Assembly (NCBI GenBank): GCA_003281005.1 | Contig: QCDE01000007.1 | Location: 1-50,134 of the forward strand | DNA length: 50,134 nt | Direction: 5' to 3' | DNA from: Pelagibacteraceae bacterium AG-349-O05 | GTDB taxonomy: Bacteria > Pseudomonadota > Alphaproteobacteria > Pelagibacterales > Pelagibacteraceae | Part shown: positions 7,570 through 8,271 of the stretch, piece after piece | How positions within the stretch are numbered: the stretch's first letter is position 1 | Layout: the number at the start of each line of letters is the position of its first letter | Notes under the pieces: model-generated | What the model saw: only the letters and a program-made list of their open reading frames with translations | The model's database searches: none | Told to the model about the DNA's origin: nothing | Program-made: the position numbers and the translations under genes

Positions 7570-8271
7570 CTAACTAAATAGTTGAAAAAATTTTTCAAAA
7601 AAACCAAGTTTTTTTGGGTTTTTTGATAAAAATGAAATCTCATTTTCATTATACCCATTTAAAATTTTATGGGACATAAAAGATAACTCTTTATTTTCAT
7701 CAAATAAATTTTTTATATAAGCTCCATCAAGATATTTTGTAATTTTTATTTGATAATTTTCTAAGATCTTATTCAAATCATTAATAATTATATTTGAAAT
7801 AGAATGAAATTTAATCTCTAAAGCAAAAGAATCACTTTTTAAATTTTCTTCAAAAGTTGCATAACTAATATTATTAATTAAATATTTGTTAATTACCATG
7901 TGCATAATATTTTGATTTGGGTAATTTTCTCTAAATAAATCTTTTGCTTCTATTAGTGAATTTTCAAGATATTCTTTTGTAATAAAAACATTATAATTTT
8001 TTTTTTTAATTCCTAAATCTAAAATAAAAATTTTTCTATCTTCCAAAATAAGAAAAATATTTTCTACAAATTTTCCACTCAATTTTTCGATTTTGAAAAT
8101 ATTATCATCGAGAAATTTTTTTATAATACCACTATCAAGATTATTATTATTTTCACTTATAATTAATTCTTTCTTGTATAAGTTATTTAAATTCTTTGTA
8201 TCAAACAAATATATTCCAAGTTTATTTGGTGAAACTCTTAAATAATTTTCTAAATCTTGTTCTTTATTCAT
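7570..8271 (-). CDS. Shortened FtsA-like protein lacking the ATP-binding half
   Basis: Sits exactly in the ftsA slot, after ftsQ (8 bp overlap) and before lpxC, but has only 233 residues against about 410-420 for FtsA. Reading it against E. coli FtsA by eye, residues about 18-70 follow the first part of subdomain 1A, without the phosphate-binding GLDIGTTK-type loop (here LGIYLFDTKN). Residues 70-180 follow subdomain 1C: NIFLILEDRK against VYLALSGKH, TKEYLENSLIEAK against TQEDVENVVHTAK, MVINKYLIN against HVIPQEYAID, and IIINDLNKILENYQIKITK against DMAKNIVKAVERCGLKVDQ. Subdomains 2A and 2B and the DIGGGT motif are gone. The end (222-233, LGFFEKFFQLFS) is a hydrophobic amphipathic helix like the FtsA membrane-targeting tail. 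The intact frame and retained tail argue against a pseudogene. The homology call is inference. Confidence 0.65.
   Translation of the reverse strand: MNKEQDLENYLRVSPNKLGIYLFDTKNLNNLYKKELIISENNNNLDSGIIKKFLDDNIFKIEKLSGKFVENIFLILEDRKIFILDLGIKKKNYNVFITKEYLENSLIEAKDLFRENYPNQNIMHMVINKYLINNISYATFEENLKSDSFALEIKFHSISNIIINDLNKILENYQIKITKYLDGAYIKNLFDENKELSFMSHKILNGYNENEISFLSKNPKKLGFFEKFFQLFS

Follow-up and report, generated by a model that had tools for sequence, protein, structure and literature searches.

Introduction

Accounts of bacterial division give a central place to FtsA filaments, to ATP and to the contact between FtsA subdomain 2B and FtsZ. In the FtsA of Escherichia coli, E14 lies in the phosphate-1 motif and D210 in phosphate-2, and both E14 and S84 are reported to be needed for function (PMC10213515). 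According to earlier deletion work, FtsA no longer interacts with FtsZ when 2B is lost, and 1C is required for FtsA self-interaction and for the recruitment of FtsQ and FtsN (PMC4281207). In FtsA filaments the longitudinal contact is formed by IIA-IIB and the lateral contact by IC, and the FtsN tail binds in the IA-IC cleft, which in PilM holds the cytoplasmic tail of its partner (PMC7613929). Here, we describe a half-size FtsA encoded in a 50,134 nt stretch of DNA from Pelagibacteraceae bacterium AG-349-O05 (GenBank assembly GCA_003281005.1, contig QCDE01000007.1, positions 1 to 50,134; the whole stretch is referred to as the window), which keeps a predicted first actin lobe and a predicted C-terminal membrane helix and is without the second lobe.

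The half-size FtsA shares the 1A and 1C folds and a C-terminal amphipathic helix with the FtsA proteins of E. coli, Vibrio maritimus and Thermotoga maritima (Protein Data Bank (PDB) entries 7q6d, 7q6f/7q6i and 1e4f/4a2b), and its gene occupies the same slot after ftsQ as that of E. coli, but 2A/2B is absent, and with it go the phosphate-2 and adenosine motifs, the longitudinal filament contact and the site reported to bind FtsZ. The long FtsA of other Pelagibacterales is a direct homologue, in which lobe I, the last 1A helix and the C-terminal helix align with those of the half form and which, unlike the half form, keeps lobe II. PilM differs in keeping both actin lobes and, by the title of 5eou, its structure was determined with ATP bound. 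SAR11 are described as the most abundant heterotrophic bacteria of marine plankton (PMC13198564). The titles and opening lines of abstracts in the open-licence PMC literature revealed no paper on half-size FtsA or on SAR11 FtsA, and passages of PMC2877005, PMC10580974, PMC7203096 and PMC11994032 on these subjects mention neither.

Identity of the half-size protein

A search of 5.8 billion proteins with the window protein returned 1435 homologues at E<=1e-3 and, among the best 120 of these, 119 are 232-235 aa long. Given so many homologues of near-constant length, the open reading frame (ORF), which starts with ATG, is not a chance one, and the coordinates of the ORF together with these homologues confirm the claim of an earlier note, made from the letters of the window alone, that the ftsA slot encodes a product of only 233 residues. 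Searched alone against Pfam and NCBIfam, the window protein was assigned to no family. When a less derived relative (L053) was used as the query, 835 homologues were found, and most of the top-scoring ones bear the precomputed Pfam domain PF02491 (the SHS2 domain inserted in FtsA), which also passes its cut-off in five half-size relatives. A match of the window protein to YlxY (E=0.03) and a match to Tad8 in one of 54 relatives were taken as chance.

The FtsA identity proposed in the earlier note was borne out by profile and fold. PDB matches to the profile of the half-size family were FtsA chains only, hhalign gave 99.7 % for the half-size family against long SAR11 FtsA, and FtsA was the best fold match of the AlphaFold2 model, with agreement over 1C. 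Homology to FtsA over 1A-1C, including the SHS2 domain, was thus found by profile and fold, the window protein having no Pfam hit of its own, and descent of the half-size protein from FtsA is supported. The next-best fold match was the cytoplasmic domain of GspL/EpsL, a shortened actin-like fold in a membrane-linked adaptor, which differs in belonging to type II secretion, in having another architecture and in not lying in an ftsA slot.

Retained and missing parts

When the profile of the long form was compared with 18 half-size genomes, the first match ended at position 177-195 in every case, starting late (positions 63 and 109) in two of them. A second match, at 343-387 and in the same gene, was found in ten, the window being among the eight without it. 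Positions from about 195 to 343 were unmatched in all 18 and are absent from the model, and this block of about 150 residues is lobe II (2A/2B). At the junction, L053 reads CSNYAKSF, then a short linker and CQIGYNLNRGLNKQEV, and continues to GFFEKLFHFFK; in the neighbouring long clade CSSYAKS is followed, approximately 150 residues later, by CQSGF..NKQEV..GFFEKLFHFFK. MAFFT aligned the last 1A helix to the wrong flank of the gap, and the reading given here uses the profile matches, the fold and the junction alignments. Domain boundaries (Table 1) are approximate and drawn from the AlphaFold2 model and alignments. Because the actin topology has lobe II inserted into lobe I as a single uninterrupted segment, removal of lobe II allows lobe I to close on itself, as it does in the predicted model.

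Sequence and model together support the retention of nearly the whole of actin lobe I (1A, 1C and the last 1A helix) plus the C-terminal helix, and the loss of lobe II. The earlier note had only the start of 1A and all of 1C as kept, which holds for 1C but understates 1A, as the segment after 1C and the last 1A helix are also present. The C-terminal amphipathic helix named in the note is supported by sequence: the same motif occurs in the long forms, and the hydrophobic moment of the last 10 residues is 0.64, a value reached by 1.3 % of shuffles. On the basis of this sequence and hydrophobic moment, membrane binding is predicted.

The note was also right that 2A/2B and phosphate-2 are missing, though not phosphate-1, whose hairpin fold is present with a degenerate sequence. 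In the alignment, E14 and S84 of E. coli correspond to R12 and E77 of the window protein, D210 falls in the lost block, and in 20 half forms the residue aligned with E14 is never acidic. ATP-binding motifs were therefore not found, phosphate-2 and the adenosine loop being physically gone and phosphate-1 degenerate though its fold persists. The GGGT of phosphate-2 is kept in none of 33 long SAR11 FtsA, and the alignments suggest that the ATP site was altered across the order before lobe II was lost.

Five full-length FtsA proteins from sister genera g5 and g6 (L092-L095 and L098) are without most of the motif residues as aligned; with phosphate-2 and adenosine motifs lost in the same alignment, the g5 and g6 proteins would be full-size pseudo-actins.

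Distribution

An order-wide survey covered 247 Pelagibacterales genomes. The window protein matched 134, all in its own genus, with intact frames of 220-245 aa in 87, partial or broken frames in 16 and long frames in 31. The long-form profile matched 220 of the 247, adding 11 long frames and one partial frame in the same genus, and long forms, a small number of them truncated at contig ends, occur in the remaining nine genera. In other genomes of the genus the frame in the slot is about 370-400 aa long, and long Pelagibacterales FtsA in this slot ranges from 368 to 410 aa in 33 loci. Half forms were found in the single-contig genomes G003, G005, G013 and G020, and a fifth single-contig genome, G026, has a broken frame. 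Named records among the best 80 of 176 relatives are Pelagibacteraceae or Pelagibacterales (SAR11), mostly single-cell genomes. The half-size FtsA is not peculiar to the window genome.

No second FtsA, of full length or otherwise, was found in 18 half-size genomes (the window draft and 17 relatives). In the window genome a search with PF02491 for a second copy gave none, and the sole PF14450 hit was read by eye as MreB, with mreC- and mreD-like ORFs after it. Complete loss of ftsA was proven in none of 24 genomes with no match or a partial match to the long profile (20 of the 27 unmatched and four others), as 16 of them also have no lpxC match and in eight the contig ends at the slot. Across the class, the long profile matched 374 of 387 genomes, and no half-size FtsA outside the genus was seen among the matches listed, all frames there being at least 340 aa; the listed matches did not include the half-size genomes of the genus and, thus, absence beyond SAR11 is unproven.

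Proposed role in division

The part that is lost includes the site with which the FtsA of E. coli and of T. maritima is reported to bind FtsZ, as well as the IIA-IIB contact surface, and the IC lateral surface is kept. As lobe II holds the FtsZ site, the filament contact and two ATP motifs, and as the recruitment side and the helix remain, the half form is most likely a nucleotide-free, non-polymerising adaptor bound to the membrane. We infer that ATP binding and filament formation would have been lost with 2A/2B, that the predicted C-terminal helix would place the protein on the membrane, and that 1C of lobe I would recruit later division proteins. The FtsZ tail would then either bind a new site on lobe I or depend on another protein for its membrane link. 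Overall, judging from the sequence and the model, this protein probably serves as an adaptor that sits on the membrane, does not polymerise and brings in later division proteins. It seems somewhat less certain, but still the better bet, that division in a large part of this SAR11 genus relies on a one-lobed actin, without ATP, filaments or the known FtsZ site, and with a contact to the Z-ring of a kind not described. If so, these bacteria divide without an FtsA of the actin type. A natural domain deletion under selection, with the long form in the same genus and slot, would make the jobs of FtsA separable by test, namely those needing the actin lobe and those needing only 1A-1C and the membrane helix, and it exposes a gap in what is understood of FtsZ anchoring in these cells.

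Several observations weigh against the adaptor reading. The window protein matches zero Pfam families even at E<=10, and PF02491 is found at E<=0.01 in only 7 of the 54 members of alignment A1, the window protein not among them. SPOR domain searches for FtsN gave hits in 5 of 14 genomes, none recognised as FtsN, so a role for the FtsN cleft rests on analogy. In 16 long forms of the genus the mean identity of lobe II is 0.40 and that of lobe I 0.33-0.42; lobe II is thus not visibly dispensable there, and weaker conservation as a prelude to its loss was not seen. Finally, evolution is fast: among 96 distinct half-size coding sequences, the ratio of nonsynonymous to synonymous rates (dN/dS) has a median of 0.44 and peaks at 1.23 when all 3953 pairs below dS 1.5 are taken, the larger distances being affected by saturation. 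On the other side, dN/dS is 0.12-0.33 in the 25 pairs of least divergence (dS 0.10-0.38), so that purifying selection seems to act on the gene even though it evolves fast.

Whether the protein also tethers the Z-ring is a separate matter. The FtsZ tail could bind a new site on lobe I, perhaps on the face formerly under lobe II, and we regard this as possible but tentative. This is the only FtsA found, its C-terminal helix is kept, and SepF (PF04472), a small non-actin membrane anchor of FtsZ with a different domain, was found in none of 14 genomes. As the earlier note had claimed, FtsZ also keeps its canonical peptide: the FtsZ tail is EIPAFLRRQ in all 20 half-size loci with ftsZ, and such conservation implies that something still reads the tail. 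However, in 30 long-form loci the tail is EIPAFLRRQ in 23 (including all 18 of the genus), EIPAFLRKQ in five and EIPSFLRRQ in two, so that long-form genomes of the genus share the same tail, which could serve other partners, and FtsA reportedly ceases to interact with FtsZ on deletion of 2B (PMC4281207). A recruiter of later division proteins is better supported than a tether, a role that is a guess as the reported FtsZ site lies in the lost part. An FtsZ-independent half form that supports only the cell-wall synthesis side, another membrane protein anchoring FtsZ, is rather unlikely. The known FtsZ site is indeed gone and ZapA, a Z-ring cross-linker, is present in 14 of 14 genomes, but no alternative anchor was found, the FtsX extracellular domain, like SepF, being detected in 0 of 14 (the FtsX model was also silent in the Caulobacter control); ZipA and FzlC, the latter an alphaproteobacterial candidate anchor, were not searched.

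Decay of the gene towards loss would account for the fast evolution over all pairs and for stops inside the match in two relatives (G026 and G152). It is nevertheless highly improbable given the low dN/dS of the closest pairs, the frame of 220-245 aa held in 87 genomes with like junction and helix, and the lack of any proven absence of ftsA in the 24 genomes noted above. In G026 (locus L051) murD and mraY are also short or split, suggesting sequencing errors behind its broken ftsA. The window assembly is a draft in 37 contigs and 87 % complete, as an assembly or annotation artefact would have it, but the same form in four single-contig genomes refutes that explanation, to which next to no weight can be given, and many single-cell genome records also carry it.

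Evolutionary history

All outgroup loci are long and, hence, the half form is derived. In a tree of ftsA 1A-1C (L051 excluded) the half forms make up one clade with support of 98/88. The tree of ten neighbouring genes (L051 included) needs three changes between half and long forms, and 14 single-gene trees need two to five. The neighbouring genes reject a single half-size clade (approximately unbiased (AU) test, p=0.00085), and the ftsA 1A-1C data gave p values of 0.010, 0.055 and 0.11 for neighbour-like arrangements; the 53 fetched loci are a hand-picked, non-random sample of the hits. One excision with later allele exchange between lineages fits both trees and is favoured by the like junction in the half forms. 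Repeated excision, with attraction between altered sequences in the ftsA tree, is a possible but less favoured alternative.

Genetic context

The window locus is a dcw cluster in which the half-size ftsA lies between ftsQ and lpxC, as in 20 further loci (L047-L066), and gene order around ftsA is identical in half-form and long-form loci. The ftsA start overlaps the ftsQ end by 8 bases, and 57 bp separate the ftsA end from the lpxC start (7512), too short for a remnant of the C-terminal half, as the earlier note had reasoned.

Table 1. Features of the half-size ftsA and of ftsQ and ftsZ in the window
Feature	Position	Strand	Basis
Half-size ftsA, 233 aa + stop	7570..8271	minus	ORF, homologues, FtsA profile and fold matches
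Subdomain 1A, N-terminal part, residues 1-78, degenerate phosphate-1 hairpin	8038..8271	minus	AlphaFold2 model, alignment
Subdomain 1C/SHS2 domain, ~residues 79-158	7798..8037	minus	Model, structural match, PF02491 in relatives
Post-1C segment of 1A, ~residues 159-190	7702..7797	minus	Alignment, hhalign, model
Junction, site of absent 2A/2B lobe, ~residues 191-195	7687..7701	minus	Long-profile match stops at 190; junction alignment
Last 1A helix, ~residues 196-206	7654..7686	minus	By-eye alignment with long-form C-terminal helix; helix 196-204 in model
Linker with invariant E211	7606..7653	minus	Alignment A1; low predicted local distance difference test score (pLDDT)
C-terminal amphipathic helix GFFEKFFQLFS, predicted membrane anchor	7573..7605	minus	Motif shared with long forms; hydrophobic moment
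ftsQ, upstream neighbour of half-size ftsA	8264..8935	minus	Pfam POTRA_1 and FtsQ_DivIB_C
ftsZ, intact C-terminal peptide DLEIPAFLRRQKN, adjoins mraW, not after ftsA	22549..24030	minus	Locus reading, FtsZ tails compared

Wherever a fetched locus of the order (L047-L099) extends to ftsZ, this gene lies beside mraW (in the window, at 22549-24499, between mraZ and mraW). A move of ftsZ because ftsA shrank was rejected, as long-form genomes also have ftsZ beside mraW. Most of 50 FtsZ tails have a second short motif, P[DEQNK]LF, in the linker approximately 25-40 residues before the end.

The SPOR proteins of L181 and L183, tried as FtsN, are lipoproteins by eye and were set aside. Each is encoded between lytic-transglycosylase-like and D,D-carboxypeptidase-like ORFs (names by eye). 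Lastly, murE and murF are fused into one ORF of 947 aa (16681-19524 in the window), also in the genus of the window and in the fetched g5 and g6 loci, and are unfused in the fetched loci outside these three genera.
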